A stretch of DNA of 31,279 nucleotides. It comes from Burkholderiales bacterium. Lineage in GTDB: Bacteria > Pseudomonadota > Gammaproteobacteria > Burkholderiales > Burkholderiaceae. Of the stretch, positions 5,618 to 27,178 are shown piece by piece. The stretch lies in assembly GCA_947371645.1 (NCBI GenBank), contig CANBQJ010000018.1, positions 1 to 31,279 on the forward strand, in the 5' to 3' direction. Each line of letters begins with the position of its first letter. Position 1 is the first letter of the stretch. The notes beneath the pieces were generated by a model. It did not search any database and was not told the DNA's origin. It was given only the letters and a program-made list of their open reading frames with translations. Position numbers and translations under genes: made by a program.

Positions 5618-5701
5618 GCCCTGCGGACCAGCCCGCCTTTCAGCCCCACCACACCCCCATACCCCACATCACGTTGCCACGTGCCATCGGAGACCTGAGC
5701 C

Positions 5702-6358: not shown

Positions 6359-6359
6359 C

Positions 6360-6854: not shown

Positions 6855-6865
6855 ATCGAGGGGCC

Positions 6866-13181: not shown

Positions 13182-13342
13182 GGGGGCCTCCAATCGTGTG
13201 GGTTCGTGGGCTCCGCTGCAGTGTGAACCGGGCGGCCGCGGTTGAGACCCCCAGGCAAGCCCCATGGACAAGCCACACCATGGCGTTCAGCGTGCGGCAG
13301 TTCACGGGCCGGCACGCTCGGCGCATGCAGGCATACTCGGGC

Positions 13343-15916
13343 ATGTCTGATGGCCCTCTGCACCCAAGCCAGGATGCGCCTTTGCGCATCATCGGGCTGG
13401 GTGCGTCGGCGGGCGGTCTGGAGGCACTGACCGATTTCCTGGCGGCTGTGCCTTCTGACCGCGGCTTGAGCCTCGTGGTGGTTCAGCACCTGTCGCCCTC
13501 GAAAAAGACCATGCTCGTGGAGTTGCTTCAGCGGGTCACGACCATGCCCGTGCACGAGGCCGCCGAGGGCATGGCGCTGGCAGGCAACACCGTCTACGTC
13601 ATCCCACCGGATTTCGAGCTGCAGGTGCTCAAGGGGCAACTGCGTTTGCGCCACCCACAGCAGGCCCATGGCTTGCGCCTGCCCATCGACGTGCTGTTCA
13701 GTTCTCTGGCACAGGACCAGGGTGAGCGTGCCATCGGGGTGGTGCTCTCCGGCATGGGCAGCGATGGCAGCCTGGGCTTGCAGGACATCAAGAGCCAGGG
13801 GGGGCTGACCTTGGCACAACTGCCCGACACCGCCTTGTTTGCGGCCATGCCCACGAGCGCCATCGCGACAGGGTGTGTGGACATCGTGGCCCCGCCTGCG
13901 GACATGCCGGCGCGCATCCTCCAGATCACGGCGCACCGCATGGTCCCGGGCCTGACTGCAGACGGCTCCTCGGGTGCCGGCGCGGGCGCAGCGCCGTCCG
14001 CCCTCAGCAGGATCCTGGACATGCTGCGAGAGCACTGCCGACATGACTTGTCGCTCTACAAGACCAACACACTGGAACGCCGCATCGAGCGGCGGGTGGC
14101 GGTGCACAGTCTGCCTTCCATGGCGGACTACGCCAATTTCCTGAGCCACAACCCGAAGGAAATGGACCTGCTGTTCGCCGAGATGCTGATCGGGGTGACC
14201 GGCTTCTTCCGCGACCCGGACGTGTGGGCGGAGATCCAGGGGCAGGTGATGCCCGACCTGATGGCCAGGCACATCAACAGCCTGGATGGCCACACGCCAT
14301 TGCGTGCCTGGGTCGTGGGCTGCTCCACGGGCGAAGAGGCCTACTCGCTGGCCATGGTCTTCAAGGAGGTGCGGGCGACGCGGCCCGATTTGCAGGCAGG
14401 GACCTTGCAGATCTTCGCGACCGACCTCAGCGCCGATGCCATCCTGGTGGCCCGCAGGGGGTTGTACCCGGCCAAGTCGCTGGAGGCCATGTCGCCTGAG
14501 CGGCAGGCACGTTTCTTCACGCCCCAACATGGCGGCATGCAGATCGACAAAGGGATACGGGACATGGTGCTGTTTGCCCAGCATGACGTGATCCTGGACC
14601 CGCCGTTCACCAAGCTCGACCTGCTGTCCTGCCGCAATGTACTGATCTACTTCAATGCCGAGTTGCAGCGGCGCCTGATGCCCCTGTTTCACTACAGCCT
14701 GCGCCCACAAGGGGTGCTGGTGCTGGGGGGCTCCGAGACCGTGGGCCGGGCCCAGTCGCTGTTCGTTCCCTTGATCCCCAAGTCGCGCGTTTACCAACGC
14801 AGCGAGCGGGCCTTGCATGCCGGCGCCGTGGACTTTCCAGTCAACCGCTATGCACCGCCACGCGCACATCCGCAGGAGCCTGCCTTGTCGACCCCTACCG
14901 AGTCTCATCCCATCAATTTGCAGGCCCTGGCCGACCAGGTGCTGCTGCAGACCTTTTCTCCGCCTGCTGTGCTGGTCAACGAGGCGGGCGACATCCTCTA
15001 CATCAGTGGCCGCACCGGCAAGTACCTGGAGCCAGCCGCAGGCAAGGCCAACTGGAACATCCATGTCATGGCCCATCGCGCCATCCGCACCCAGTTGGCG
15101 GTGGCCATGCGCCAGGCCTTGCAAAGCACGCAGCCCGTTGAACTGCCCGGCCTCAAGATCGACGAGGCCCCTCACCACAGCCTGCACATCACGGTGCAGG
15201 CCGTGCGAGAACCCAAGGCCCTGGCCGGCATGCTGATGATCGTGTTCAAGGATGTGCTGGTGCCCCCTGGCACCCGCAGCCGCAAAGGGGCGTCTGCAGG
15301 AGCGATGGACACGGCTCTGGCGGCTGAACTGGAGCGCTCTCGTGAGGAGATTCAGGCGCTGAGGCTGGAGATGCAGGCGTCCAAAGACGCCTTGCAGATG
15401 GCCAATGAAGCCCTGCAGTCCATCAACGAAGAGCTGCAGTCGGCCAATGAAGAGCTGACCACGTCCAAGGAAGAGGCACAGTCCATGAACGAGGAACTGC
15501 AGACCATCAATGGCGAACTGCAAACCCGGCTCGACGACCTGGCGCTGGCGCAGAGCGACATGCAGAACCTGCTCAACAGCACCGACATCGCGACGCTCTT
15601 CCTGGACAACGACCTGAACGTGCGTCGCTTCACCGAGCAGGCCACGCGCATCTTCCACTTGAGAGACAGTGACATCGGCCGGCCGCTGACCGACCTGGCC
15701 AACACCTTGTCTTACCCGGACTTGTACGCCGATGCCAAGGAGACGCTGCGCACCTTGACGCCCTGCGAGAAGCAGGTGACCACTGCCGATGGGCACTGGT
15801 ACGCGGTCCGGATCATGCCGTATCGCACCTTGACCAACATGATCCAGGGTGCCGTGCTCACCTTCGTCGACATCACGGGTGCCAAGGCGCTGGAGGCACG
15901 CTTGCGCAGCAGCTGA
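13343..15916 (+). CDS. CheB-CheR-PAS fusion chemosensory protein without a kinase domain
   Basis: Using the start MSDGPLH, the protein has 857 residues; ATGs at 13280 and 13325 are possible, and none has a strong ribosome-binding site. Residues about 13-195 are a CheB methylesterase domain with the catalytic triad S22 (GLGASAGG), H49 (VVQHLSP) and D141 (SGMGSDGS), but no receiver domain precedes it. Residues about 215-480 are a CheR methyltransferase (FAEMLIGVTGFFRD, VVGCSTGEEAYSLAM, LLSCRNVLIYF). A PAS-like region follows (about 530-640), then a coiled coil (about 650-750) of EELQSANEELTTSKEE repeats and a last PAS domain ending FVDITGAKALEARLRSS. Many relatives go on into a histidine kinase; this one stops there. 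Expected role: a sensor using protein methylation chemistry or acting as a scaffold. Confidence 0.9.
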   Translation: MSDGPLHPSQDAPLRIIGLGASAGGLEALTDFLAAVPSDRGLSLVVVQHLSPSKKTMLVELLQRVTTMPVHEAAEGMALAGNTVYVIPPDFELQVLKGQLRLRHPQQAHGLRLPIDVLFSSLAQDQGERAIGVVLSGMGSDGSLGLQDIKSQGGLTLAQLPDTALFAAMPTSAIATGCVDIVAPPADMPARILQITAHRMVPGLTADGSSGAGAGAAPSALSRILDMLREHCRHDLSLYKTNTLERRIERRVAVHSLPSMADYANFLSHNPKEMDLLFAEMLIGVTGFFRDPDVWAEIQGQVMPDLMARHINSLDGHTPLRAWVVGCSTGEEAYSLAMVFKEVRATRPDLQAGTLQIFATDLSADAILVARRGLYPAKSLEAMSPERQARFFTPQHGGMQIDKGIRDMVLFAQHDVILDPPFTKLDLLSCRNVLIYFNAELQRRLMPLFHYSLRPQGVLVLGGSETVGRAQSLFVPLIPKSRVYQRSERALHAGAVDFPVNRYAPPRAHPQEPALSTPTESHPINLQALADQVLLQTFSPPAVLVNEAGDILYISGRTGKYLEPAAGKANWNIHVMAHRAIRTQLAVAMRQALQSTQPVELPGLKIDEAPHHSLHITVQAVREPKALAGMLMIVFKDVLVPPGTRSRKGASAGAMDTALAAELERSREEIQALRLEMQASKDALQMANEALQSINEELQSANEELTTSKEEAQSMNEELQTINGELQTRLDDLALAQSDMQNLLNSTDIATLFLDNDLNVRRFTEQATRIFHLRDSDIGRPLTDLANTLSYPDLYADAKETLRTLTPCEKQVTTADGHWYAVRIMPYRTLTNMIQGAVLTFVDITGAKALEARLRSS

Positions 15917-16378: not shown

Positions 16379-17116
16379 TCACGACGCCATGAGCGCCCAA
16401 TCCGGGCCAGGCTCCAGCAGCAGGCGGTCGTACTCCTGCCTGACCACGGCATAGCACTCGCAGCTGCGCAGCAGCAAGGCGGCCCGGTCCAGCACGGTGA
16501 TGTGGCCTCTGGCATAGCGGATCACACCGTCCCTTTGCAGCCCGATGGCAGCTTCCGTCACGCCCTCGCGGCGCACCCCCAGCATGTGGGCGATGAGCTC
16601 CTGCGTCATCACGATGTCGGTCCCGGGCAAGCGGTCGAGCAGCATCAGCAGCCAGCGGCACAGCTGCTTGCCAAGCACGTGGTGGCGGTTGCAGACCGCC
16701 GTCTGTGCCACCTGCGAGATCAGCGCCTGGGTATAGCGCAGCAGCAGGTGCGCCACGGCACCGGAGCGCTCGAACTCTGCCAGCACCTTGCGTGCGCTCA
16801 GGCGATAGCCCTGGCCACCGCACAAGACCACCGCGCGGTGGAGTGCGCTGCCGCCGCCCATGAACAAGGCCGTGCCCACGACGCCCTCCCTGCCCACGAT
16901 GGACAACTCGGAAGACGAGCCATCTTCGGTCACGTACAGGTTGGAGACGACGGCTGTCGTCGGGAAGTAGACATGCTCCAGATTGCGCCCCGACTCGTAC
17001 AACACCAGGCCCAATGGCATGTCCATGACCTCCAACTCTGCTTGCCACCGTTGCCACTCGGCCTCGGGGAGCAAGGCAATCAGGCCGTTCATTCTGGCGT
17101 CTGGAGCGAAAGGCAT
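16379..17116 (-). CDS. Crp/Fnr-family transcriptional regulator, paralog 1
   Basis: The 245-residue protein has an N-terminal cNMP-binding-type barrel (about 20-115) with HVYFPTTAVVS, a dimerisation helix (about 115-145), and a C-terminal winged helix (168-206: MTQELIAHMLGVRREGVTEA). The recognition helix keeps the Arg-Glu pair that in Crp reads the GTG of TGTGA. In the phosphate cassette (GVVGTALFMGGGSALHRAVV) the Crp glutamate of FGE is replaced, so cAMP binding is doubtful. It has conserved Cys (VCNRHH, QLCRW, SCECY). It aligns without gaps to the regulator at 22694-23419. AAGGGG precedes the start. The perfect palindrome at 17202-17217 lies upstream with a TACACT -10, so it is probably self- or cross-regulated. 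Confidence 0.92.
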   Translation of the reverse strand: MPFAPDARMNGLIALLPEAEWQRWQAELEVMDMPLGLVLYESGRNLEHVYFPTTAVVSNLYVTEDGSSSELSIVGREGVVGTALFMGGGSALHRAVVLCGGQGYRLSARKVLAEFERSGAVAHLLLRYTQALISQVAQTAVCNRHHVLGKQLCRWLLMLLDRLPGTDIVMTQELIAHMLGVRREGVTEAAIGLQRDGVIRYARGHITVLDRAALLLRSCECYAVVRQEYDRLLLEPGPDWALMAS

Positions 17117-17201
17117 TTCGCCCCTTTGCGTGGTTGGTGTGCCTGAGAGAACAAGGTGAAGTCAGGTTGCCACCAGTGTAGGCCCCCCATTCGGGTTGCC
17201 T

Positions 17202-17217
17202 TGTGCGCCAGCGCACA
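17202..17217 (-). promoter_or_regulatory. Crp-type operator, copy a (for Crp/Fnr paralog 1)
   Basis: The sequence TGTGCGC-CA-GCGCACA is a perfect palindrome with 7-base arms. Read toward the minus-strand regulator gene, a site centred at -41.5 puts the -10 hexamer at 17175-17180, where the minus strand reads TACACT, and the start of transcription near 17168, 52 bases before the ATG. It could also act on the plus-strand gene at 17371, although copy b lies closer. Confidence 0.65.
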
Positions 17218-17274
17218 GACGGATCGTTTCCGCGGGTCATTCGCGTCCTTGCGCGATCCAGGCTGGCGCCCATC

Positions 17275-17290
17275 GGTGCGTCAACGCACA
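17275..17290 (+). promoter_or_regulatory. Crp-type operator, copy b (for the 79-residue gene)
   Basis: The sequence GGTGCGT-CA-ACGCACA matches the shared palindrome except for the first base. For the plus-strand gene at 17371, a centre at -41.5 puts the -10 at 17312-17317, which reads CAGACT, and the transcript start near 17324. CAGACT is the same hexamer found at the corresponding place after copy f. Confidence 0.6.
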
Positions 17291-17370
17291 GAAATCTTTC
17301 GCCGCATTCCGCAGACTTGCAGCCTGGCACGGGGCCAAGGCAAGGCAGTCATCACTTGACGGAGCGCAAC

Positions 17371-17610
17371 ATGGGTGCAGACCTCATCAGGCAGAACCTG
17401 AAGAAACTCATCGATCAAACCAGGGATCACTGGCATGATCTGATCGAAAGCGATGAAGTCGATGTGGCTTCAGCAGGCGGCGCCTTCTCCAGCCACGGCG
17501 CCAGGCGGCAACGTGCCGTGGCCGATGCGGCCGAGGTGCGAGAGACCAGGGTCAGCAGCAGGCTGCTGCGCAAAGCGCAGATTCAACGTCAGTCATCTCG
17601 CCGGAGTTGA
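17371..17610 (+). CDS. 79-residue basic protein, possibly a divergent CsbD-like stress protein
   Basis: The ATG has GGAG ten bases upstream. The product is hydrophilic with no signal peptide. Its first 32 residues can be aligned by eye with the CsbD protein encoded at 26942: N-x-K-(K/Q)-(L/I), a central Trp, then acidic residues followed by (E/D)VDV and a Gly. The C-terminal half is Arg/Ser/Ala-rich and unlike CsbD. A Crp-type operator lies 81 bases upstream. The next gene (PAS protein) begins 48 bases downstream, so the two may share a transcript. The reading as a CsbD relative is an inference. No function can be given. Confidence 0.65.
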   Translation: MGADLIRQNLKKLIDQTRDHWHDLIESDEVDVASAGGAFSSHGARRQRAVADAAEVRETRVSSRLLRKAQIQRQSSRRS

Positions 17611-17658
17611 TGCGCCCGCAAGGTGCGAACAGCCCGACAGCAGTACACAAAGGTTCCC

Positions 17659-18246
17659 ATGGCAGTGCACATCCAAGAGCTAGATCAACAAGTCAAGCTG
17701 CGCATGCGTGCACACGCTCGGCTCACCGGTCAGGGCGTGCAGGAGGATGTGGCAAGCGGGGGCGCGGCGGCCCTGGGTGTGCTGCTGGACCTGGCCGCTT
17801 CACCAGACACGGCTGCCGACGCGCTGGCGGTGCTGCATGAGTTGCAGGTCCACCAGGTGGAACTGGAGATGCAGTCTGAAGAGTTGAGATCGGCCCTGGC
17901 CGATCAGGAGACCGCACTGGCCCGGCAGGTGCAGCTCTATGACAGTGCCCCGGTCGCCCAGTTCACCGTGGATGCGCAGATGCGCCTGATGGAGGTGAAC
18001 CTGACCGGCGCGCAACTGCTGGCCACCGACCGCGAGGCCTTGTTCGGTCAGCGGCTGGATGGCTTCCTGACCGAAGCCAGCGCCAGCGACCTGCGGCTGC
18101 TGTTGTCGACGGCATCTCAGGGCGCCGGCATCAAGTCGGGTGAGTTGCGGCTGAACACCGGTGTGGAGGCACACCGGTTGTGCCATGCGGCCATCAACGT
18201 CGACCCCCAAGAGGGGCGCTTCATCGTGGTGCTCATGGCGCGGTGA
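17659..18246 (+). CDS. Stand-alone PAS-domain sensor protein
   Basis: The 195-residue protein starts at MAVHIQELDQ with AAGG close upstream. Residues about 52-92 form a helix with the ALAVLHELQVHQVELEMQSEEL pattern, common in front of PAS domains in hybrid sensors. Residues about 93-193 form one PAS domain (LYDSAPVAQFTVD, then LMEVNLTGAQLLATDREAL, ending FIVVLMAR). There is no kinase, cyclase or DNA-binding output. It must act by contact with a partner or is a remnant sensor module. Its stop overlaps the start of the phospholipase gene by four bases (GTGA), so the two are translated together, an unusual link between a sensor and an outer-membrane lipase. Confidence 0.85.
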   Translation: MAVHIQELDQQVKLRMRAHARLTGQGVQEDVASGGAAALGVLLDLAASPDTAADALAVLHELQVHQVELEMQSEELRSALADQETALARQVQLYDSAPVAQFTVDAQMRLMEVNLTGAQLLATDREALFGQRLDGFLTEASASDLRLLLSTASQGAGIKSGELRLNTGVEAHRLCHAAINVDPQEGRFIVVLMAR

Positions 18247-19301
18247 CCCGCCTGGGTGCCGGCCAAACCGGGGCAGCGCCCGCCGCTGCCTTGCTTGGCG
18301 TTCTGTTCATGGCCTGTCAGGCCTGGGCCCAGGCACCACCGGACTTCAAGGCTTGCCTGGGCCTGGCCCAGGCCGAAGAGCGTCTGGCCTGTTATGACCA
18401 CCACGCAGGCCAACAGGCCATGGTGGCGCTGCCCGCGCCGGCGGTGCCCCAGGCCACAGGCGCTGCCGGGGCTGAAGGCGCATCGTTCCTGGCGCGCTAC
18501 TGGGAGCTGGGCGCCGACGACAAGCGCGGCACCTTCAACTACACCGCTTACCGCCCCAACTTTTTCTTGCCCCTGCGGGTGATGCGGTCGCTGAACCACG
18601 AGCCCAACAGCCCCACGCGTGGGCCGGCGCTGAACCTGCCGCATTACCAGCGCGGTGAGACCAAGCTGCAACTGTCCATGCGCACCAAGGTGATGGAGGG
18701 CCTCTTGCTGCCCCAAGCAGACTTGTGGGTGGCCTACACGCAGCAGTCCATGTGGCAGCTCTGGAATCAGGCGGCTTCAGCGCCGTTTCGCAACAGCGAT
18801 TTCCAGCCCGAGTTGATCTACGTCGTGCCCGTGCCGGCGGCCTTGCAGGCCTGGCCCCTGGCCTGGCGCTGGCGCTTGGCCCAGCTGGGGCTTGTCCACC
18901 AGTCCAATGGGCAATCGGGTGCCTTGTCGCGCAGCTGGAACCGCGTGTATGCCGCCGTCGGGCTGGAGCAAGGCGACGTGACCGCCAACCTGCGCCTGGA
19001 GCAGCGCACGGACCCAGGCAGCAGCCACGGCGACGACAACCCGGACATCGTGAGCCACCTGGGCAGGCTGGAGGCGCAGTTGAACTGGTCGCCGGGACGC
19101 GCCACGTCGTCGCTCTTGTGGCGGCCAGCCCTGAGAGGCCGAGGGTCTGTGCAGCTGGACTGGACCTACCCCGTGTCCAAAGAGCGGCCGGACGGCCTGC
19201 GCTGGTACGGGCAGGTGTTCAATGGCTTTGGCGAGACCATGCTGGACTACAACTTCAGGCAGACCAGCGTGGGCTTGGGGCTGACGCTGTTCAAGTTCTG
19301 A
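18243..19301 (+). CDS. pldA: Outer-membrane phospholipase A (OMPLA)
   Basis: The chosen start is the GTG that overlaps the PAS gene stop. It opens a signal peptide (about residues 1-29, ending CQAWA), which the upstream frame would not give. The 352-residue protein is a beta-barrel lipase. The catalytic set H219, S221 and N233 lies in HQSNGQSGALSRSWNR with the same spacing as E. coli OMPLA (H142, S144, N156). Substrates are phospholipids that reach the outer leaflet when the envelope is disturbed, and the enzyme is activated by calcium and dimerisation. The N-terminal extension (residues 30-80, with ACLGLAQAEERLACYD) is longer than in the E. coli protein, as in many betaproteobacterial members. 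The protein ends in Phe, typical of outer-membrane barrels. Confidence 0.93.
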   Translation: MTRLGAGQTGAAPAAALLGVLFMACQAWAQAPPDFKACLGLAQAEERLACYDHHAGQQAMVALPAPAVPQATGAAGAEGASFLARYWELGADDKRGTFNYTAYRPNFFLPLRVMRSLNHEPNSPTRGPALNLPHYQRGETKLQLSMRTKVMEGLLLPQADLWVAYTQQSMWQLWNQAASAPFRNSDFQPELIYVVPVPAALQAWPLAWRWRLAQLGLVHQSNGQSGALSRSWNRVYAAVGLEQGDVTANLRLEQRTDPGSSHGDDNPDIVSHLGRLEAQLNWSPGRATSSLLWRPALRGRGSVQLDWTYPVSKERPDGLRWYGQVFNGFGETMLDYNFRQTSVGLGLTLFKF

Positions 19302-19330
19302 AGGGCCCTCCCGGCGGACCCACGCCAGGT

Positions 19331-19346
19331 GGTGCGCTGGCGCACA
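19331..19346 (+). promoter_or_regulatory. Crp-type operator, copy c
   Basis: The sequence GGTGCGC-TG-GCGCACA is followed by GACC. For the gene starting at 19412, a centre at -41.5 puts the -10 at 19368-19373 (CATACA; TACAGG two bases on is an alternative) and the transcript start near 19380, a 32-base leader. It gives the stress-protein gene its own promoter after pldA. Confidence 0.62.
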
Positions 19347-19411
19347 GACCAGGGACTGGTCACCGGGCATACAGGGCAGGCATCAATACCGGTGTCAAAC
19401 GAGGAAGCATC

Positions 19412-19915
19412 ATGGACAAGGCAGAACTGCCCTTTTACGTGTTCAACACCCACATCGAATCCGAAGAGGCCATCCAGGCCTTGAACCGGTCTGGCTTCGA
19501 TGTCAAGAAGCTCTCGCTGGTCGGCAAGGGATACCACAGTGAAGAGCACCCCATTGGCTTTTACTCGACCGGCGACAAGATCAAGTCCTGGGGCGGCATG
19601 GGGGCGTTCTGGGGCGGCATCTGGGGCATGTTGCTGGCCCCGGCTGTCTTCCTGATCCCTGGGGTGGGTGTGGTCGCCATGGCTGGCCCCTTTGTGGCCG
19701 CCCTGGTGGGCGCGCTGGAGGGAGCGGTCGTGGTGGGCGGTGTCTCTGCGCTGGGCGCAGCCTTGACACGCATGGGCGTGCCCGACAACCAGGTCATCAA
19801 GTACGAGACGGCACTGAAAGCCGACAAGTACGTCCTGATGGTGCACGGCGATGCCGAGGATGCCGCCAAGGTCAGGGACGTCTTGCTCAACACCTCGGTC
19901 TGGAAGTCGGCATAG
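19412..19915 (+). CDS. General-stress-type membrane-associated protein (YflT/DUF1269-like)
   Basis: The start is the ATG preceded by GAGGA; the frame further upstream is the shadow of pldA. The product has 167 residues. An N-terminal ferredoxin-like half (FYVFNTHIESEEAIQALNRSGF, then KLSLVGKGY) precedes a Gly/Ala-rich hydrophobic middle (about 60-120), which includes GGMGAFWGGIWGMLLAPAVF and could form one or two membrane helices. A second ferredoxin-like strand-helix part follows (KADKYVLMVHGDAEDAAKV). This duplicated layout with a hydrophobic insert is seen in general-stress proteins of this type. The molecular function is unknown. It is convergent with the response regulator gene, 21 bases away. 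Confidence 0.8.
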   Translation: MDKAELPFYVFNTHIESEEAIQALNRSGFDVKKLSLVGKGYHSEEHPIGFYSTGDKIKSWGGMGAFWGGIWGMLLAPAVFLIPGVGVVAMAGPFVAALVGALEGAVVVGGVSALGAALTRMGVPDNQVIKYETALKADKYVLMVHGDAEDAAKVRDVLLNTSVWKSA

Positions 19916-19936
19916 CGGCACGGGGCCATCTGGTGT

Positions 19937-20569
19937 TCATTGGATCAGGCCCTTTTTCATCGCGTAGTAGGTGAGCTCGCTGTTGGATGCCAGCCTCATC
20001 TTTTCCATCACACGCGTGCGGTAGGTGCTGACCGTCTTGATGCTCAGCGACATGCCGTCCGCCATGTGGCCCACGGTCTCACCTTGAGCCAGGCGCAGGA
20101 AGACCTGGAACTCCCGATCTGAAAGGCCTTCATGCAAGGAAGCACACCGGTCGTCCGACAAGCTGTCGGCCAGCTGCTCGGCCACGCGCGCCGAGATGTA
20201 CCGCCGGCCTCTGGCCAGCGTCCGTATGGCCAGGATGATCTCTTCCGGGTCGCAGGCCTTGTTCAGGTAGCCACTGGCGCCCTGGCGCAGCAAGGCCGTG
20301 GCGTAGTGTTCTTCCGGAAAGCCACTGAGGATCAGCACGGGCAGTTGCGGGTGGCGTGCCGTGATGGCGGCCAGCGCATCGACGCCATTGTGTTCGGCCA
20401 TCGCGATGTCCAGGATGAGCACGTCAACGCCGACATGGCGCAACACTTCTTGGGCGTCCCGGCCGTTGGCCGCCTCTGCAACCACCAGGAAGTCAGCCTG
20501 GTCGGCGAAGAAGCGGCACAGCCCCGTGCGGACGATGGCGTGGTCATCAACGATGGCAATGCGGATCAT
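19937..20569 (-). CDS. NarL/FixJ-type response regulator
   Basis: The 210-residue protein has a receiver domain (residues 1-120) with acidic pocket D8/D9, phosphorylation site D54 (LILDIAM), S82 and K104, all in place. A LuxR-type helix-turn-helix follows (about 145-207: LSDREFQVFLRLAQGETVGHM, then SIKTVSTYRTRVMEKM). It is the partner of the kinase encoded divergently 26 bases away. Phosphorylated members bind DNA as dimers and activate or repress target genes. The start has no clear ribosome-binding site. With only 26 bases between the two starts, its promoter must lie inside the kinase gene. Its targets cannot be told from the window. Confidence 0.93.
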   Translation of the reverse strand: MIRIAIVDDHAIVRTGLCRFFADQADFLVVAEAANGRDAQEVLRHVGVDVLILDIAMAEHNGVDALAAITARHPQLPVLILSGFPEEHYATALLRQGASGYLNKACDPEEIILAIRTLARGRRYISARVAEQLADSLSDDRCASLHEGLSDREFQVFLRLAQGETVGHMADGMSLSIKTVSTYRTRVMEKMRLASNSELTYYAMKKGLIQ

Positions 20570-20595
20570 GGTGTGCCGATGAAAAGAGGTGTGTC

Positions 20596-21492
20596 ATGAG
20601 GCCGCTGTCCCAGGTCTTGAGACGCAGCAAGGCCGGCCTTGCCAGGTGGCTGCTCAGTCTGAGCGCCCTGGGCTTGCTGGGTGTGGCCATCACGGGCGCG
20701 GCGCAAGGCAAGGCGCCAGCGCAGCACCTGTGGTGGGTGGCTGCCCTGTTGTCGCTGCTCAATCTTCTGGGCTGGCTTGTGATGCCACCGTCTGCGGGCG
20801 CTGCCGCCCGGCGCCAGTTGGCAGAGCTCAAGGCCCTGACGCAGCACCTGCAGGCCGAAGGCGAGGCAGAACGCAGCCGCCTCGCGTGCGACCTGCACGA
20901 TGAACTGGGGGCACTGCTCACCTCGGCCAGGCTGGATGTTGCGCGCATCAAGCCCAGGCTGGCCGTGGCCTTGCCGGACATGATGGACGGTGTGTTGCGC
21001 ATCCAGCGCACACTGGACGAACTCATGGCCATCAAGCGCAGGGTGACCGAGGCGCTCTGGCCATCTGCCTTGGTGAACCTGGGTCTGGCACCTTCGCTGG
21101 ACATCCTGATCTCGAACCTGGTGGAGACCACGGGCATCAACGTGAATTGGGAGCGCGTGCCCGTTCAACTGAGTGCCAGTGCCCAACTGGCTGTGTACAG
21201 GCTGGTTCAGGAGGGGACGACGAACATCGTCAAGCACGCCGATGCCACAGCGGTGTGGATCAAGATGGAAGCTGCGCATGGCGTGGTGACCGTGTCCATT
21301 GCGGACAATGGTGTTGGCTTTGAGGTGGGCCGATCTCCAGCTCAGGCATGCGGCCTCATCGGCATGCGTGTTCGAATCGAGTCTGAAGGCGGTGTGATGA
21401 CCTTGCAGTCTGTGCCTGGCCAAGGCACCCACATCCAGGCTCAGTTGCCGGAAGTAGAAGCGGCATCCTGGTCAGGGCGGAAGAAGGCGTAG
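20596..21492 (+). CDS. NarL-family sensor histidine kinase (HisKA_3)
   Basis: The 298-residue protein has two membrane helices (about 15-35 and 45-64) with almost no periplasmic loop, so sensing probably occurs in the membrane or cytoplasm. The dimerisation domain carries the phospho-acceptor H101 in ERSRLACDLHDELGALLTS. The ATPase domain has an N box (VQEGTTNIVKHADA) and a G box (IADNGVGFEVG), followed by a GLIGMRVRIESEGG lid region and a G2 box (GQGTHIQAQLP). AGAGG precedes the ATG. It is cognate to the divergent response regulator. Its 3' end overlaps the convergent diguanylate cyclase gene by 52 bases, so the two messages have complementary ends. Confidence 0.92.
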   Translation: MRPLSQVLRRSKAGLARWLLSLSALGLLGVAITGAAQGKAPAQHLWWVAALLSLLNLLGWLVMPPSAGAAARRQLAELKALTQHLQAEGEAERSRLACDLHDELGALLTSARLDVARIKPRLAVALPDMMDGVLRIQRTLDELMAIKRRVTEALWPSALVNLGLAPSLDILISNLVETTGINVNWERVPVQLSASAQLAVYRLVQEGTTNIVKHADATAVWIKMEAAHGVVTVSIADNGVGFEVGRSPAQACGLIGMRVRIESEGGVMTLQSVPGQGTHIQAQLPEVEAASWSGRKKA

Positions 21493-22382
21493 CCTGTCTG
21501 CTCTCTCTTGGCGTGGTACATGGCCAGGTCGGCCCTGTGCAGCAAGTCGGCTGCGCTCAGCCCCGCCTCGGTGTACGTGGCCAGGCCGATGCTGGGCCGC
21601 ACATTGAAGACAAAGTCACCGATCTTGACCGTGGCCGAGATGGCGTCAAACAGCTTGCACGCCAGCTGGCCCAGGCGTTGCGGGTCGGGCACGTTCATCA
21701 GCAGGCAGGTGAACTCATCGCCACCCCATCGGCTCACCAGGTCATCGGCGCGCAGCGCACGGGTCAGGCGGGTTGCGGTGATGCTGAGCAACTCGTCGCC
21801 AGCGCAATGACCGTGCTGGTCATTCACGGCCTTGAAGTCGTCCAGGTCGATGAAGAACACGGCGATGCCCGACGCGGTGGGCCGGGCGTGGGCAAGCACC
21901 TGCTGCAGCCGCTGGATGAAGTGATCCTTGTTGGCCAGAGAGGTCAGGCCATCGTGTGTGGCCAGGTGGCGGGCGCGGCGCTCACCGGCCTGGCTGCCCA
22001 GCAGTTCTGCGCGGGATTGGGCCAGTGCCGTGTGCGCATCAAAGACGTCCAGCTCCAGCTGCCAGCGCCTGCTGCGCTCCTGAACCAGGTCGGGTTGCAG
22101 GGCCTCCATGGTGTGCACGCAATCGCCGATGAGCTGGCTGATCTGGCCGGGCATGGGCTTGCCGCGGGAGATCGCGTCGGTGACCGAAGCTTTGAGCTTG
22201 TCACTGACCTGGTTCAAGAGGCTCACCCAATCGCGTTCGGCCTTGAAGGGCCAACCCTTCAAGGGTGGTGGCAGGCCGGATTGCAGGGCCCATGCAGACG
22301 ACTTCTGGGGCAACATGGCCGACCTGCCATGGCCTGCTGCACCCGGGGATGTTTCCCCATTGGTTTCATCTGGGTTGTGCAT
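21441..22382 (-). CDS. Diguanylate cyclase (GGDEF protein)
   Basis: The 313-residue protein has a helical N-terminal region (about 45-130) without a recognisable sensor, followed by a GGDEF domain (about 140-305: THDGLTSLANKDHF, DLDDFKAVNDQHGH, active site GGDEF at 220-224). An inhibitory site RxxD is present at 211-214 with the normal five-residue spacing to GGDEF, so product inhibition by c-di-GMP is likely. No EAL domain follows. It should make c-di-GMP from two GTP. The N-terminus has no clear ribosome-binding site; M23 is an alternative start. It lies 14 bases after the DUF3309 gene on the same strand, so both are probably read from the operator at 22630-22645. Confidence 0.92.
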   Translation of the reverse strand: MHNPDETNGETSPGAAGHGRSAMLPQKSSAWALQSGLPPPLKGWPFKAERDWVSLLNQVSDKLKASVTDAISRGKPMPGQISQLIGDCVHTMEALQPDLVQERSRRWQLELDVFDAHTALAQSRAELLGSQAGERRARHLATHDGLTSLANKDHFIQRLQQVLAHARPTASGIAVFFIDLDDFKAVNDQHGHCAGDELLSITATRLTRALRADDLVSRWGGDEFTCLLMNVPDPQRLGQLACKLFDAISATVKIGDFVFNVRPSIGLATYTEAGLSAADLLHRADLAMYHAKREQTGYAFFRPDQDAASTSGN

Positions 22383-22396
22383 GCGCGCTCACTTTC

Positions 22397-22555
22397 TCAC
22401 AGTCGACCGGTCAGCAGCAAGATCAGGAGCACCAGGACGATCAGCCCCAGGCCGCCACTGGGCGCATACCCCCAGCCTCGGCTGTGTGGCCAGGCGGGTA
22501 CAGCGCCTATCAGCATCAGGACCAGCAAGATCAACAAGATGGTGCCCAGCGTCAT
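22397..22555 (-). CDS. DUF3309-family small membrane protein
   Basis: The 52-residue protein starts MTLGTILLILLVLMLIGAVP and continues with WPHSRGWGYAPSGGLGLI and a second hydrophobic run ending LLLTGRL. This is the DUF3309 pattern: two membrane helices joined by an aromatic, Gly-rich loop. The start is fixed by AGGAGA seven bases upstream; a longer reading adds a non-matching N-terminus. Family members are common in proteobacteria beside stress genes; their function is not known. It is the first gene ahead of the diguanylate cyclase. Confidence 0.85.
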   Translation of the reverse strand: MTLGTILLILLVLMLIGAVPAWPHSRGWGYAPSGGLGLIVLVLLILLLTGRL

Positions 22556-22629
22556 GTGTTTCTCCTGAACCCAGGGCAGGTGAGCCAACTGGTGTGATCA
22601 CCAGTCTGATCGGCCGCATCCGGCCTGGC

Positions 22630-22645
22630 TGTCTGCTAGCGCACA
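22630..22645 (-). promoter_or_regulatory. Crp-type operator, copy f (for the DUF3309-cyclase unit)
   Basis: On the minus strand this reads TGTGCGC-TA-GCAGACA: one perfect half-site and a second with two mismatches. A centre at -41.5 puts the -10 at 22603-22608 (CAGACT on the minus strand, identical to the hexamer after copy b) and the transcript start near 22596, 41 bases before the DUF3309 ATG. Confidence 0.5.
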
Positions 22646-22693
22646 TTGACCAACGGGCAGCTTTGTGTGCGGGCGGGGCCGGTCGTCAGCGTG

Positions 22694-23419
22694 TCACCGT
22701 ACAACGGCCATCAAGCCGGGCAGCAGGCGGTCATATTCCTTTTTGACCACCGCATAGCATTCGCATGTCCGTGCTTCCAGCGCAGGGCGGTCCAGCACGA
22801 TGATGCGTCCGCGCTTGTACTGGATCACGCCCTGGCTCTGCAACTTGCTTGCCGCAGCGGTGACGCCCTCACGGCGCACCCCCAGCATGTTGGCGATCAG
22901 CTCCTGGGTCATCACCAACTCATTGCCGCGCAGGCGGTCCAGGCTCAGCAACAACCACCGACAGAGTTGCTTTTCCAGGGGGTGGTGTCGATTGCAGACG
23001 GCCGTTTGCGCCATTTGCGTGATCAGGGCCTGGGTGTAGCGCAAGAGCAGGTGCATCACCGCCCCGTGTTGGCCGAAGCTGGACTTGATGTCCCGCGAAG
23101 GCAGGCGATAGCCTTGCCCTGCGCTTTGTACCACGGCCCTGCTGGGGGTGGAATCTCCGCCCATGAACAAGGACACCCCCACCACACCTTCAAAACCCAC
23201 GACAGCGATCTCTGCCGACGCGCCGTCTTCCATCACATACAGCAGGGACACGATGGACGTGGTGGGGAAGTAGACGTGTCTCAACTGGGCGCCCGATTCA
23301 CACAGCACCTGGCCCAGCGGCATTTCCACCAGTTCAAGCTGAGGCAGCAGGGCCTGGAGCAGTGCAGACGGCAGTGCAGCCAGCAATTTGTTCAAGCATG
23401 GGCCTTGGCCGTCCTGCAT
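22694..23419 (-). CDS. Crp/Fnr-family transcriptional regulator, paralog 2
   Basis: The 241-residue protein is collinear with paralog 1 from residue 30 onward without gaps; I count 57 identities over residues 121-190. It has the same parts: barrel with HVYFPTTSIVS, dimer helix with YTQALITQMAQTAVCNRHH, and winged helix MTQELIANMLGVRREGVTAA. The recognition helix VRREGVT is identical in both, so both should read the same DNA. The Crp cAMP-binding glutamate is again replaced (VVGVSLFMGGDSTPSRAVV). Cys residues in VCNRHH, QLCRW and TCECY are shared. AAGGG precedes the start. A perfect operator at 23489-23504 with a TACAGT -10 stands upstream, shared with the divergent hydroxylase gene. Confidence 0.92.
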   Translation of the reverse strand: MQDGQGPCLNKLLAALPSALLQALLPQLELVEMPLGQVLCESGAQLRHVYFPTTSIVSLLYVMEDGASAEIAVVGFEGVVGVSLFMGGDSTPSRAVVQSAGQGYRLPSRDIKSSFGQHGAVMHLLLRYTQALITQMAQTAVCNRHHPLEKQLCRWLLLSLDRLRGNELVMTQELIANMLGVRREGVTAAASKLQSQGVIQYKRGRIIVLDRPALEARTCECYAVVKKEYDRLLPGLMAVVR

Positions 23420-23488
23420 TCGCTAACCCTTGGTTTGACTGCACATGAAGAAATCGTCCGGACTGTAGACAAGCCAGTGCCGGGTGTA

Positions 23489-23504
23489 TGTGCGACGTCG
23501 CACA
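23489..23504. promoter_or_regulatory. Crp-type operator, copy d (shared, divergent)
   Basis: TGTGCGA-CG-TCGCACA is a perfect 16-bp palindrome. It lies almost midway between two divergent starts, 69 bases from regulator 2 and 67 from the hydroxylase gene. With a centre at -41.5 in each direction, the expected -10 positions read TACAGT on the minus strand (23462-23467) and TAACTT on the plus strand (23526-23531). One site could therefore serve both promoters. Confidence 0.65.
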
Positions 23505-23571
23505 GACCATGCCTGCCTGGCTACGTAACTTGCACTTCCATCTTGGTGGCATTCAGATCCAGAGGCGCGGC

Positions 23572-24114
23572 ATGAATCTATTTTCTTTTGAACACAGCAA
23601 AACCGCTTACCTGGCCGATTTCTGGCTGTATGGGGCATGCACCCTCGTCTTGATGAGCTACCTGGCCTGGTCTGTCCCGCAGCCCATGCGGTGGGCCGTG
23701 GTGCTGTGTGTGGGCGCTGGCGTGGTGATCTGGTCAGGGATGGAGTATGTGCTCCATCGCTTCGTGCTGCATGAATTCCCGGTGCTTCGGATGTGGCATC
23801 AGTCCCATCATGCAAGGCCCCGGGCACTGATCTGCACCCCGACCTTCCTCAGTGCCACGCTCATCGGGTCGCTGGTGTTCTTGCCGCTGTACCTGATCCT
23901 GGACCGGTGGTTCGCGATGGGCATCACCCTGGGCGTCTTGCTGGGCTACCTGGGCTATGCCCTCACACACCACGCCATCCACCATTGGCGTGCGGACAAC
24001 AGCTGGCTGGAAGACCGCAGGCACTGGCATGCGATGCATCACCGGGCCAACAGCCGGGCGGCTTGCTTTGGCGTGACCAGCACGATCTGGGACCGGGTCT
24101 TTCGCAGCGACTAG
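23572..24114 (+). CDS. Sterol desaturase/fatty acid hydroxylase-family membrane protein
   Basis: The start MNLFSFEHS is preceded by AGAGG-like bases; the upstream frame crosses the operator and is not coding. The 180-residue protein has about four membrane helices and the di-iron histidine clusters of the family: HRFVLH (62-67), HQSHH (76-80), HHAIHH (133-138) and HWHAMHH (151-157). These should hold two irons for oxygen-dependent hydroxylation or desaturation of a lipid. At 180 residues it is a short member, similar to the bacterial fatty acid 2-hydroxylase type. The substrate is unknown. Its operator suggests that lipid modification belongs to the same stress response as pldA. The stop overlaps operator copy e. 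Confidence 0.88.
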   Translation: MNLFSFEHSKTAYLADFWLYGACTLVLMSYLAWSVPQPMRWAVVLCVGAGVVIWSGMEYVLHRFVLHEFPVLRMWHQSHHARPRALICTPTFLSATLIGSLVFLPLYLILDRWFAMGITLGVLLGYLGYALTHHAIHHWRADNSWLEDRRHWHAMHHRANSRAACFGVTSTIWDRVFRSD

Positions 24115-24129
24115 GAGGCGCAGCGCACA
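24114..24129 (+). promoter_or_regulatory. Crp-type operator, copy e (half-conserved, for the OmpA gene)
   Basis: The right half, CA-GCGCACA followed by GAC, matches the other copies exactly, while the left half (GGAGGCG) is degenerate and overlaps the hydroxylase stop codon. A centre at -41.5 puts the -10 at 24151-24156, which reads TACAAC, with a 19-base leader to the ATG at 24182. The right half is also part of an inverted repeat, GCACAG-ACG-CTGTGC (24125-24139). Confidence 0.5.
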
Positions 24130-24181
24130 GACGCTGTGCAGGCATGTCTTTACAACGGGCTGATCAACCCGAAGGAACAAC

Positions 24182-25375
24182 ATGAACTCCAAATCACCAA
24201 TGCATGCGATCGCTCTGGGCGTGCTGAGCCTGCTCGGCGCCAGCGCGTTCGCCCAGGGCCAATCGACCGAAGGTCAGTCCTACTACTACGGCGGTGTGTC
24301 TGCAGGGCAGGCCACGACCAACATGGAGGAGGGGCGCATCACCGAAACGCAGACCCGGCCGAGTGTTGGCGTCACGACCATCCACAAGGATGAGCGGGAC
24401 ACCTCCTACAAGGCCTTTGGCGGCTACCAGTTCAACCGCTTCTTCGCTTTGGAGGGTGGCTACTTCCATCTGGGCAATCCGAAGTTTCTGGCCGACACTT
24501 CGCCCGCGGGCACCTTCCACGGTCAGGTGCGGGTGCAGGGCGCGAACCTGGACATGCTGGGCTTCCTGCCTGTGACCGACGGGTTGTCGGTCCTGGGTCG
24601 GGTGGGCGCGCAGTATGCCAAGACCAGTGACCAGTTTGAAGGTACCGGTGCAGCCGTGCCCATCGACAGGGCGCCGAGCAAACGGCAGATGAACATCAAG
24701 GCTGGCGCCGGCCTGCAATACGAGTTCATGCCGTCGCTGCTCGGCCGTGTGGAGTTCGAGCGCTATCGGGTCAGCGATGCGGTGGGCAACCACAATGGCG
24801 TGAACGTGGCGTCCTTGAGCCTGGTCGTGCCGTTCGGGCGTTCACCTGCACCCAGCCCGCACGTGTCGATGGCACCACCGCCCGAGCCGGCACCCATGCT
24901 GGCGCAAGCGCCGGTGATCGAGCCCTTCCAGCCGCCCGCTGCGGGCATCGCGCCCCCCATGGTGGTGGCAGTGGCCCCGCCGGAACGCAAGCGGGTGTCG
25001 TTCTCCGCCGAGTCGCTGTTCGGCTTTGACCGTTCTGACGTCCGGCCTGAAGGCAAGCTCGCGCTGGACAGCTTTGTTCGCGAACTGGAAGGCACACAGT
25101 TCGACACGATCACGGTGGAGGGTCACACCGATCGCCTGGGCACGGTCGAATACAACCAGCGCCTGTCAGAAGAACGCGCACAAGCCGTCAAGGACTACCT
25201 GGTGGGCACCGGCAAGGTGGACGCCAGCAAAATCGTGGCCAAGGGTGTCAGCGAATCCGACCCAACCACGCAGTCCGCGGACTGCAAGGGCAAGAAGGAA
25301 ACCGCCAAGTTGATCGATTGTCTGCAAGCTGACCGCCGCGTCGAAATCGAGGTGGCCGGCACCCGGGTGAACTGA
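24182..25375 (+). CDS. OmpA-family outer-membrane porin/peptidoglycan-binding protein
   Basis: The 397-residue protein begins with a signal peptide (cleaved about residue 24, ASAFA). Residues about 30-220 form an eight-strand OmpA-like barrel (YYYGGVSAGQ, AFGGYQFNRFFALEGGYF, ending ASLSLVVPFG). A Pro/Ala-rich linker (about 222-268) leads to the C-terminal OmpA domain (about 270-395). That domain shows FGFDRSDVRPEGK, the peptidoglycan-binding motif VEGHTDRLGTVEYNQRLSEE with its Asp/Arg pair, and a Cys pair (DCKGKK ... DCL) as in classic OmpA. Role: tethering the outer membrane to the cell wall. AAGGA precedes the ATG. It is convergent with a second OmpA-domain gene, with a hairpin between. Confidence 0.92.
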   Translation: MNSKSPMHAIALGVLSLLGASAFAQGQSTEGQSYYYGGVSAGQATTNMEEGRITETQTRPSVGVTTIHKDERDTSYKAFGGYQFNRFFALEGGYFHLGNPKFLADTSPAGTFHGQVRVQGANLDMLGFLPVTDGLSVLGRVGAQYAKTSDQFEGTGAAVPIDRAPSKRQMNIKAGAGLQYEFMPSLLGRVEFERYRVSDAVGNHNGVNVASLSLVVPFGRSPAPSPHVSMAPPPEPAPMLAQAPVIEPFQPPAAGIAPPMVVAVAPPERKRVSFSAESLFGFDRSDVRPEGKLALDSFVRELEGTQFDTITVEGHTDRLGTVEYNQRLSEERAQAVKDYLVGTGKVDASKIVAKGVSESDPTTQSADCKGKKETAKLIDCLQADRRVEIEVAGTRVN

Positions 25376-25409
25376 ACACCATCAGGCGCAAGCCAAGCGG
25401 GTCTTTTGC

Positions 25410-25442
25410 CGGGCCGCCCCATGGTCTCCATCGGGCGGCCCG
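25410..25442. terminator. Perfect hairpin between convergent OmpA-type genes
   Basis: CGGGCCGCCC at 25410-25419 is complementary to GGGCGGCCCG at 25433-25442, a 10-base all-GC stem with a 13-base loop. It sits in the 80-base gap where two converging genes end, so it can end or protect both transcripts. Neither strand has a T tract after the stem, so it is not a textbook intrinsic terminator. Confidence 0.65.
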
Positions 25443-25455
25443 CTCACGTTCACGT

Positions 25456-26346
25456 CTAGCGCTGTGAGACCGGGTCACCCTCGGCCGACAGGACGATCTC
25501 GACGCGGCGGTTGAGCTGGCGGCCCGCCGATTGGCTGTTGTCGGAGATGGGGCTGGCTTCGCCCAGGCCCTTGGTCTGCAGGCGCGACGGCGCAACGCCC
25601 ATCTTGACCAGCGCAGACTTGACGGCGTCTGCACGCAAGGTGGACAAGCGCTGGTTGTGTGCTTCGCTGCCGGTGCTGTCGGTGTGCCCCTCGATCACCG
25701 CCGTGCGCTGCAGGTTCTGCTGCAACAACTCCGCCAGCTTGCCGACCTGGCCCATGCCGCCCGCCTTCAGTTTGGCCTGGTCGGTGTCAAACAGCACGTC
25801 TTCGAAGGTGATCACCAGGCCCCTGGCGGTCTTCTGGGCCTTGAGGTCCAGCAGCTGGGCTTCCAGCAACTGGCTGTGCGCCTGCGCATCGGCACTGAGC
25901 TGTTGTGACTGAGCCGCTTCTTGTTGGGCCACGACCGTTTGCGCTTGAGATGTGGCGCTCATGCGTTGGGCGCTTTCGGCCTCCTGGGTGCGTGCGTCCA
26001 GTCGCAGCTGGTTGCGCGTGCCTCTGGCGTCGGCCACCTGGGCCTCGGCGTTGCGCTGCTGCGCGGCCTCCTGCGCGATCGCCACCCTTTGCCTGGCCAG
26101 ATAGGCCAGGTGGTTCACGTTGGTGGTGGAGTCGGCGTGGCGCCACGCGTCTGTGGCCTGCTGCAAGGCGTCTTCGGCCTGCTTGAGTTCGAGTGGCGCA
26201 AGCTGGCCGGCCTTCGGGTCCGTCTGCGCCGCGTGGAAGTCGTCAGTGGCCTGGTCCAGCGCGAGGTTGCGTGGCGGCATGCCGCCACAGCCAGCAGTGA
26301 CCAGAAGCGCCAGGGCGGCCGTGGGGATCAATCGTTGCTTGTTCAT
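25456..26346 (-). CDS. DUF4398 + OmpA-domain lipoprotein
   Basis: The 296-residue protein has a lipoprotein signal with lipobox TAGC (C20); the start MNKQRL is chosen because AAAGGA lies six bases upstream of it. Residues about 30-115 match DUF4398 (LDQATDDFHAAQTDPKAG, KQAEDALQQATDAWRHAD). Residues about 115-185 form a Gln/Ala-rich coiled coil, and the C-terminal OmpA domain (about 190-290) has the wall-binding motif VIEGHTDSTGSEAHNQRLS and ends NRRVEIVLSAEG. It should be a Pal-like outer-membrane lipoprotein that holds peptidoglycan through a long helical arm. It is the second gene after a shorter DUF4398 lipoprotein (38-base gap), so the two are probably cotranscribed. Confidence 0.9.
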   Translation of the reverse strand: MNKQRLIPTAALALLVTAGCGGMPPRNLALDQATDDFHAAQTDPKAGQLAPLELKQAEDALQQATDAWRHADSTTNVNHLAYLARQRVAIAQEAAQQRNAEAQVADARGTRNQLRLDARTQEAESAQRMSATSQAQTVVAQQEAAQSQQLSADAQAHSQLLEAQLLDLKAQKTARGLVITFEDVLFDTDQAKLKAGGMGQVGKLAELLQQNLQRTAVIEGHTDSTGSEAHNQRLSTLRADAVKSALVKMGVAPSRLQTKGLGEASPISDNSQSAGRQLNRRVEIVLSAEGDPVSQR

Positions 26347-26384
26347 GTCCATTCCTTTGGGTTGGTGGGTGGCCAGGGAGGGCT

Positions 26385-26762
26385 TCACTTGGCCTTGCGA
26401 TCGAGCTCTTCACGCAGGACGCGGCTGTCCGCGCTCACCGCGTCGGCGGCCTTTCGGGCTTGCTTGGACTGGGCTTTGGCTTCGGCCAGTTGCGCATCGA
26501 CCTGTGCCTCTCCGGCCAGGATCCGGGCCTCATCGTTCTTGTTGGCGGCCATGGCGACTGTGGCGCGGTCCAGCTTGTCTCTCGCCATGGTCATCTCCAC
26601 TGGCGCGGACTCATTGCCTCCTGCGCTGGCGGCATGTGCCACCGAGTCGGTCGCCAAGGCCAGCAAGACGGTGGGGCGTGGGGTGCTTGCGCATGCTGCC
26701 GTCAGCAAGGTGATGCCCAAGAGCAAAGGCCACAGCGGGCCCTTGATGGAAGGTGTGGTCAT
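26385..26762 (-). CDS. Small DUF4398 lipoprotein
   Basis: The 125-residue protein has a lipoprotein signal with lipobox TAAC (C24); the start MTTPSIKG follows GGAG. The rest is alpha-helical: EMTMARDKLDRATVAMAANK, then ARILAGEAQVDAQLAEAKAQ, the DUF4398 pattern also present in the next gene. It looks like the same helical arm without the OmpA domain, so it could pair with the longer protein. Function unknown. Its promoter region is shared with the divergent csbD gene and holds a candidate operator at 26817-26832. Confidence 0.88.
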   Translation of the reverse strand: MTTPSIKGPLWPLLLGITLLTAACASTPRPTVLLALATDSVAHAASAGGNESAPVEMTMARDKLDRATVAMAANKNDEARILAGEAQVDAQLAEAKAQSKQARKAADAVSADSRVLREELDRKAK

Positions 26763-26816
26763 GTGTTGCTCCGTGTTGAGGGTCCAAACACCGTGCACCG
26801 CACCACGCCGGATGTC

Positions 26817-26832
26817 GGTGCGTTGTCGAACA
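26817..26832. promoter_or_regulatory. Candidate Crp-type operator, copy g (between DUF4398 and csbD genes)
   Basis: GGTGCGT-TG-TCGAACA differs from the shared palindrome at the first base and at one base of the right arm. It lies 55 bases upstream of the DUF4398 lipoprotein gene and 110 upstream of csbD. At the position expected for a -41.5 centre I see no good -10 on either strand; TACAGG at 26858-26863 is four bases off for csbD. This is the weakest listed copy. Confidence 0.35.
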
Positions 26833-26941
26833 CACCAGGGCGGTCGCGGCCAAGTCCTACAGGCGGTCGCGTCGCTCACCGATGGCGCACTCAGGCCTGC
26901 CACAGGACCATGGGGGCTTCATCTACCCATCGGGGCACAAC

Positions 26942-27178
26942 ATGAACTGGGATCGCATTGAGGGCAACTGGAAGCAGATCAAGGGGCTGGCCAAGGAGAA
27001 GTGGGGCAAGCTCACCGACGACGATGTCGATGTGGTCGCAGGCCGCAGGGACCAGCTGGCCGGCAAGATCCAGGAGCGCTATGGCCTGGCCAAGGCCGAT
27101 GCAGAAAAGCAGGTCGCCGAATGGCAGCGCACGGCCACCGACCAGTGGTTTGCGCCCAGCGACAAGACGAAGGTTTGA
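26942..27178 (+). CDS. csbD: CsbD-family stress response protein
   Basis: The 78-residue protein is a clear CsbD-family member: MNWDRIEGNWKQIKGLAKEK, then WGKLTDDDVDVVAGRRDQLA and GKIQERYGLAKADAEKQV. The family fold is a small helical bundle; members are induced by general stress, and their biochemical activity is not known. There is no signal peptide, so it is cytoplasmic. The start is the ATG at the family's N-terminus; the 20 codons upstream do not fit the family. It precedes the SYLF gene by 77 bases on the same strand. Confidence 0.93.
   Translation: MNWDRIEGNWKQIKGLAKEKWGKLTDDDVDVVAGRRDQLAGKIQERYGLAKADAEKQVAEWQRTATDQWFAPSDKTKV

Follow-up and report, generated by a model that had tools for sequence, protein, structure and literature searches.

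A Crp-geometry palindrome as the probable operator of a widespread Crp/Fnr subfamily in Burkholderiales and other proteobacteria

A stretch of 31,279 nucleotides from a Burkholderiales bacterium (assembly GCA_947371645.1, contig CANBQJ010000018.1, forward strand), in the following termed the window, contains repeated copies of the 16-mer TGTGCG-N4-CGCACA next to genes for two Crp/Fnr-type regulators, P0001 and P0002. This 16-mer is, with high probability, the operator of a widespread Crp/Fnr subfamily represented by P0001 and P0002 (class A), which would activate its targets in class II manner and very probably regulate its own genes. The operator, its 20-base pair (bp) consensus, its co-occurrence with class A and its spacing to a -10 hexamer are evident at the level of sequence, and from these we infer binding, activation and autoregulation by class A. 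In the proposed mechanism, a class A dimer would bind the palindrome TcTGTnCGnYRnCGnACAgA with one half-site per subunit. The operator, centred at -41.5, would take over the position of the -35 box, and the promoter would keep only the -10 hexamer TAnnnT; from this position, the bound dimer is expected to activate a promoter that has only a -10 element. Class A genes have this promoter as well, which makes their positive autoregulation very probable. With about 11-26 sites per genome, chance matches included, the regulon is predicted to be small.

The initial annotation had listed seven intergenic 16-mers in the window (17202, 17275, 19331, 22630, 23489, 24114 and 26817). All coordinates proved right. 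The sites at 17202 and 23489 match without mismatch, those at 17275 and 19331 with one, and those at 22630 and 26817 with two, while the letters at 24114 reveal only a half-site (right half CGCACA plus GAC; left half with four mismatches). The four copies with at most one mismatch compare with 0.43 expected, and none of 100 shuffles reached four. At up to three mismatches no enrichment was observed in the window (30 matches versus 39.8 expected), and the 16-mer alone therefore cannot carry the site at 24114. The string CGCACAGAC occurs four times (0.71 expected; 1 of 100 shuffles as high). The 20-bp pattern with at most two mismatches was matched seven times versus 0.88 expected (0 of 100 shuffles); two of these matches, at 16341 and 27280, were absent from the initial list. 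The operators (strand not applicable) and the genes next to them are as follows.

17200..17219: operator O1, 20-mer CTTGTGCGCCAGCGCACAGA, facing P0001; -10 hexamer TACACT at 17175-17180 (minus strand)
16379..17116, minus strand: Crp/Fnr regulator P0001; HTH_Crp_2 52.7 bits (cut-off 27), cNMP_binding 22.3 bits (under the cut-off of 27.5)
17273..17292: operator O2, TCGGTGCGTCAACGCACAGA, facing the 79-amino acid open reading frame (ORF); -10 hexamer CAGACT at 17312-17317
17371..17610, plus strand: 79-amino acid ORF downstream of O2, without Pfam or NCBIfam match
19329..19348: operator O3, GTGGTGCGCTGGCGCACAGA; -10 hexamer CATACA at 19368-19373, the weakest of seven
19412..19915, plus strand: YflT-like (heat-induced stress) gene, weak match of 23.0 bits (cut-off of 26.2 not reached)
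22628..22647: operator O4, GCTGTCTGCTAGCGCACATT, asymmetric with one TGTCTG half, facing DUF3309; -10 hexamer CAGACT at 22603-22608 (minus strand)
22397..22555, minus strand: DUF3309 small protein, 81.9 bits (cut-off 22.3)
23487..23506: operator O5, TATGTGCGACGTCGCACAGA, best of the window, divergent; -10 hexamers TACAGT at 23462-23467 (minus strand, P0002 side) and TAACTT at 23526-23531 (plus strand, fatty acid hydroxylase side)
22694..23419, minus strand: Crp/Fnr regulator P0002, both Pfam domains over cut-off
23572..24114, plus strand: fatty acid hydroxylase-family gene, 61.6 bits (cut-off 31)
24112..24131: half operator O6, TAGGAGGCGCAGCGCACAGA, preceding the OmpA gene; -10 hexamer TACAAC at 24151-24156; less certain
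24182..25375, plus strand: OmpA-family outer membrane protein
26815..26834: operator-like O7, TCGGTGCGTTGTCGAACACA, between the DUF4398 and CsbD genes; doubtful
26942..27178, plus strand: CsbD-family gene near O7
26385..26762, minus strand: DUF4398 gene near O7

The -10 hexamers that had been assigned to these sites by placing the operator centre at -41.5 (TACACT, CAGACT, CATACA, CAGACT, TACAGT/TAACTT and TACAAC) were all located exactly at this spacing. A hexamer at +30 from the operator centre, equivalent to positions -12 to -7 if the centre lies at -41.5, is present on seven of the nine gene-facing sides in the window, each ranking within the top 2.1 % of hexamers between 16.0 and 27.4 kilobases (kb). 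Except for that at 26817, the listed sites (six of seven) thus are probable class II promoters, with O6 being less certain because its operator is only half. A gene for an outer-membrane phospholipase A1 (18243-19301) is located directly upstream of O3.

For comparison, 80 loci from Burkholderiales and other beta- and gammaproteobacteria were fetched with P0002 by protein alone, yielding, together with the window, 81 sequences (1.41 megabases). Genes of the loci were called by a purpose-built codon-usage caller, which missed or mis-stranded some of them (in the window, the 79-amino acid ORF was missed, and genes were called on the opposite strand at the histidine kinase and FKBP genes). The TGTGCG palindrome with a gap of 4 was found 112 times (18 exact and 94 one-mismatch matches) and ranked first among 60 permutations of the half-site, the mean over all 60 being 0.45 exact and 9.3 one-mismatch matches. 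The enrichment is confined to gap 4, as gaps of 0-3 and 5-10 gave 4-13 matches each. The Crp geometry recognized by the initial annotation is supported. At least one intergenic match was present in 57 of the 81 sequences; overall, 99 of the 112 matches are intergenic, with intergenic DNA accounting for 19 % of the bases.

Alignment of the matches revealed the full site to be the symmetric 20-bp palindrome given above, which supersedes the one-sided extension originally described for several copies. The fourth core base is the loosest (79 % G), hence the half-site TGTnCG. Of the matches, 98 % have C at half-site position 5 and 97 % have G at position 6, frequencies that are favoured by selection with TGTGCG at no more than one mismatch; permuted half-sites gave no such pattern. 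The half-site thus differs from the TGTGA of the Crp operator. A relaxed pattern, TNTGTNCG-N4-CGNACANA with at most one mismatch, retrieved 177 matches (163 intergenic) from the 81 sequences versus a single one for the reversed pattern. A second set comprised 54 stretches of seven genomes, picked by site, with some contigs overlapping the first set (G003:C79 with L014, G042:C228 with L022); here, 76 of 82 sites are intergenic, intergenic DNA making up 60 of 280 kb.

Promoter geometry was assessed by scoring the DNA downstream of the operator with a -10 matrix for the 182 target genes of the 81 sequences, 180 of which represent non-redundant stretches. A strong -10 hexamer at +30 was detected in 37 % of these 180, compared to an upstream-side background of 2.0 % (maximum 5.6 %), and on 33 % of gene-facing sides (n = 205) versus 13 % of sides without a called gene (n = 147). 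The logo at +30 to +36 reads TAnnnT followed by G (TAnnnTG), with C as the most frequent fifth base, which may be reminiscent of a sigma-S preference. After removal of regulator targets and of the window, the hexamer was retained at +30 in 44.6 % of 130 targets (looser cut-off), the next best offset reaching 12.3 % and the other offsets 3.6 % on average. No -35 box was seen among these 130 non-regulator targets (none of 11 offsets above 3.9 %). In the second set, the value at +30 was 22.5 % of 89 scored regions, and the other offsets given did not exceed 3.4 %. The peak in both sets agrees with the class II arrangement put forward initially. Spacing of the centre to -41.5, presence of a -10 and lack of a -35 element are the sequence traits of class II Crp-type promoters, and together they strongly support this placement.

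Two other explanations bear on this geometry. A dispersed palindromic repeat or an RNA hairpin operating without a regulator would likewise be palindromic, intergenic and repeated, and is extremely improbable in view of the exact -10 spacing, which contradicts it; beyond the 20-mer, only the -10 is common to the flanks, the stretches are non-redundant, and the sites are tied to the regulator. This candidate was rejected, as no Rfam match was obtained at gathering score and the flanks are non-redundant. Alternatively, class A could bind the site but repress, or act differently from promoter to promoter. When located in place of the -35 region, a site can equally obstruct RNA polymerase, and some promoters hold two or more sites (17200 and 17273 in the window, and others in the second set). 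An obligate class II activator, however, depends on a single exact spacing and the lack of a -35 box, and a repressor does not, which renders this explanation improbable.

The tie to class A was established statistically across genomes. The perfect 16-mer was discarded as probe, since only 0-6 copies per genome occurred in 16 genomes, and was replaced by the 20-mer because of this rarity. A first sample consisted of 150 genomes from the family of Acidovorax sp. NO-1 (source of L017), with the regulator called at E <= 1e-30. The 62 genomes with a P0002 relative hold 123 strict 20-mer sites versus 25 in the 88 without; the reversed pattern yielded 7 and 5 sites, respectively. At least one strict site was present in 47 of 62 versus 21 of 88 genomes, and at least two in 27 of 62 versus 1 of 88 (G076, 5 sites). 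In a second, class-wide sample (274 genomes minus three shared; regulator at E <= 1e-60), 47 sites were found in 25 genomes with the regulator versus 21 in 246 without (p = 1e-11), corresponding to at least one site in 17 of 25 versus 19 of 246 genomes. Co-occurrence in two samples thus ties the sites statistically to class A, which would be the protein that binds them. Moreover, considering only genes with at least 250 bases upstream, a site (score >= 15, within 300 bases upstream) precedes 69 of 90 class A genes and none of the 90 with the sequence reversed.

Next to class A, further Crp/Fnr matches with 38-49 % identity (class B, 43 proteins) were encountered, and 20 of these 43 carry the site in the same upstream test, compared to 177 of 1065 among all other genes (other targets included). 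The palindrome could accordingly be bound by another regulator, such as the class B paralogs or a local response regulator, with class A as a mere passenger of the neighbourhood. Two or three Crp/Fnr matches occur in 49 of the 81 sequences, and class B has the GVRR-x-G-[VI]-T recognition helix in common with class A. This explanation appears unlikely, as all 62 genomes of the site-rich group were defined by a class A match and both the Crp spacing and the palindrome fit a Crp/Fnr dimer. Furthermore, with up to 18 candidates scored per genome, the 28 of these 62 genomes without a listed class B-like match hold 57 sites and the other 34 hold 66, so that, within the reach of that search, class A alone suffices. 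Class B differs in that Val replaces E184 in 32 of 43 proteins, and in 10 of 43 the best upstream site has a half CAGACA (TGTCTG). Unlike halves TGTGCG/TGTCTG were observed upstream of class B genes in L010, L012, L017, L019, L023, L024, L026, L044, L057 and L067, and the DUF3309 operator of the window (22628-22647) shares this TGTCTG asymmetry. The unlike-half operators and the Val of class B could point to mixed A/B dimers or to a further specificity.

Several observations weigh against class A as a class II activator acting through this operator. A strict-cut-off site is absent from 15 of 62 and 8 of 25 regulator-bearing genomes in the first and second sample, respectively, 21 of the 81 sequences have no match to the 16-mer at up to one mismatch, and the same applies to 5 of 10 annotated plasmid loci. 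G076 possesses its five sites with no regulator detected at E <= 1e-30; sites without regulator, as in G076, L106 and L235, could be due to an assembly gap or a divergent regulator. At the strict cut-off, 63 % of the 180 stretches lack a -10 at +30. The 13 % on sides without a called gene exceeds background; small genes or RNA genes overlooked in gene calling may account for part of it. Finally, neither side of the site at 26817 (CsbD, DUF4398) has a -10 at class II spacing, and its function as class II promoter is doubtful. The near-site in L235 is located before a CsbD gene and is accompanied by a -10 at class II spacing.

P0001 and P0002 share 69 % identity across an alignment of 207 residues. 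Pfam matches and the predicted fold (predicted local distance difference test 89.8, predicted template modelling score 0.88) assign a cNMP-binding-like beta domain and a Crp-type helix-turn-helix (HTH), and thus the Crp/Fnr superfamily. Mycobacterium tuberculosis CRP, GlxR, FNR, CRP and NtcA are among the 50 solved chains listed as closest (11-22 % identity). P0002 matches at least 8000 proteins at E <= 1e-20; the names given among the 120 matches listed, 'CRP-like cAMP-binding protein' and 'Crp/Fnr family transcriptional regulator', are generic. C142, H146, R154, R182, R183, T187, C219 and C221 are invariant in 45 homologs. R183-E184 align with the Arg-Glu pair of the GlxR recognition helix, the preceding residue being Arg, and the position four residues after the pair is occupied in class A by Glu (89 %) or Ala. 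These altered recognition-helix residues are a plausible cause of the changed half-site. In the GlxR alignment, the Glu of the 'GEL' cyclic AMP (cAMP) pocket faces Val/Ile, and an Arg-Ala is nearby but shifted; the cAMP-contact residues of the CRP pocket are Glu72 and Arg82-Ser83. A canonical cAMP pocket is not evident. The three invariant cysteines and the invariant histidine offer only a lead towards a sensor.

Control of class II promoters by Crp/Fnr regulators is known. E. coli CRP binds TGTGA-N6-TCACA and is centred at -41.5 in class II promoters. With it, class A shares the superfamily, the 16-bp core geometry with TGT at both ends, the centre at -41.5 and, via the GlxR alignment, the Arg-Glu pair of the recognition helix. 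In contrast to E. coli CRP, the half-site is TGTnCG with a loose fourth base and a required C-G; the third contact, Arg185 in CRP, is Glu or Ala, Gly-Glu of the cAMP pocket aligns as Gly-Val/Ile, and P0002 has 15 % identity to the listed CRP structures. GlxR of Corynebacterium glutamicum and M. tuberculosis CRP, the nearest solved structures by sequence and fold, are only 18-20 % identical and are cAMP-dependent, whereas in class A a canonical cAMP pocket is not evident. FNR/ANR proteins, including Anr2 of Burkholderia cenocepacia, share superfamily and fold and are class II activators with the half-site TTGAT. Class A differs from them in half-site and in that the FNR-type N-terminal cysteine cluster is not conserved in the 45 homologs, where C142, C219 and C221 are the only invariant cysteines. 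Anr2 is described as 43 % identical to Pseudomonas aeruginosa Anr (PMC9104464). Bcam1349 of B. cenocepacia, of the same superfamily and order, is set apart by its exopolysaccharide targets, being described as a cyclic di-GMP-responsive Crp/Fnr activator of exopolysaccharide genes (PMC3584217). Among the papers listed by searches of open-access full-text literature, which lacks most subscription journals, neither a description of the site or regulon nor a link of CsbD, DUF3309 or BON to a Crp/Fnr regulator was found. The half-site and regulon thus were not found described, in keeping with the initial annotation, which could not tie them to a described regulon.

In the 81 sequences, the regulator genes themselves are the most frequent target, with Crp/Fnr genes accounting for 59 of the 182 target genes. 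Pfam families were counted for 114 of the 123 non-regulator targets, and those among the first 25 of 87 families include BON (8), CsbD (7), PAS (6), fatty acid hydroxylase (5), response regulator (4), GGDEF, DUF3309, MORN and peptidase C13 (3 each) as well as DUF1003, PRC, OmpA, Ysc84 and Band_7 (2 each). Among 108 length-matched control genes from the same loci, DUF4398 (5), OmpA (3), BON (2) and DUF3309 (2) were counted, and CsbD and fatty acid hydroxylase at most once each. Second-set targets (81) comprise Crp-type HTH (6), BON (4), response regulator (3) and CBS, PRC, PLD-like, OEP and GGDEF (2 each). The envelope-stress character proposed initially is thus supported only in part: BON, CsbD, fatty acid hydroxylase, DUF1003 and PRC are encountered repeatedly, but in low numbers, and signalling or metabolic functions are frequent among the targets. 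A site scoring at least 15 precedes 5 of 40 CsbD genes in regulator-bearing genomes versus 0 of 40 in others (p = 0.055). A role of CsbD as core target is not supported by this test, and CsbD is only an occasional target.

In the window, the regulon would include both regulators, the 79-amino acid ORF, the YflT-like gene, DUF3309, the fatty acid hydroxylase and probably OmpA. Its designation as local turned out too narrow. Sites with at most two mismatches number 24, 24, 21, 11 and 26 in G013, G077, G042, G044 and G003, respectively (reversed pattern: 4, 3, 9, 2 and 4), and are spread over many contigs, which indicates a small genome-wide regulon with clusters.

A more far-reaching proposal can be put forward only tentatively. 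Class A may be a plasmid-borne and chromosomal stress activator of beta- and gammaproteobacteria with the new half-site TGTnCG, self-amplifying, sensing redox state or metals via C142/H146 in the dimer helix and C219-x-C221 beyond the wing, and controlling a small portable regulon for envelope protection. Operator, promoter rule and target list render the subfamily immediately testable. They also provide handles on gene families of unknown role recurring under class A (DUF3309, CsbD, BON and DUF1003) and constitute a natural set suited to the study of specificity changes in the Crp recognition helix.

Ten plasmid loci were drawn from 20 matches listed, out of 41 records, and five of them (L125, L127, L128, L129 and L132) contain the site at no more than one mismatch. 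L132, plasmid pKLC102 of P. aeruginosa, represents a class A relative on a conjugative plasmid; at 8550-8569, an operator-like site with a TAGACT hexamer at class II spacing precedes a small gene. Elsewhere in the window, a CheB-CheR-PAS fusion protein is encoded at 13196-15916, and at 1809-8478 TPR and ExbB genes cluster with two ExbD genes and one TonB-like gene.

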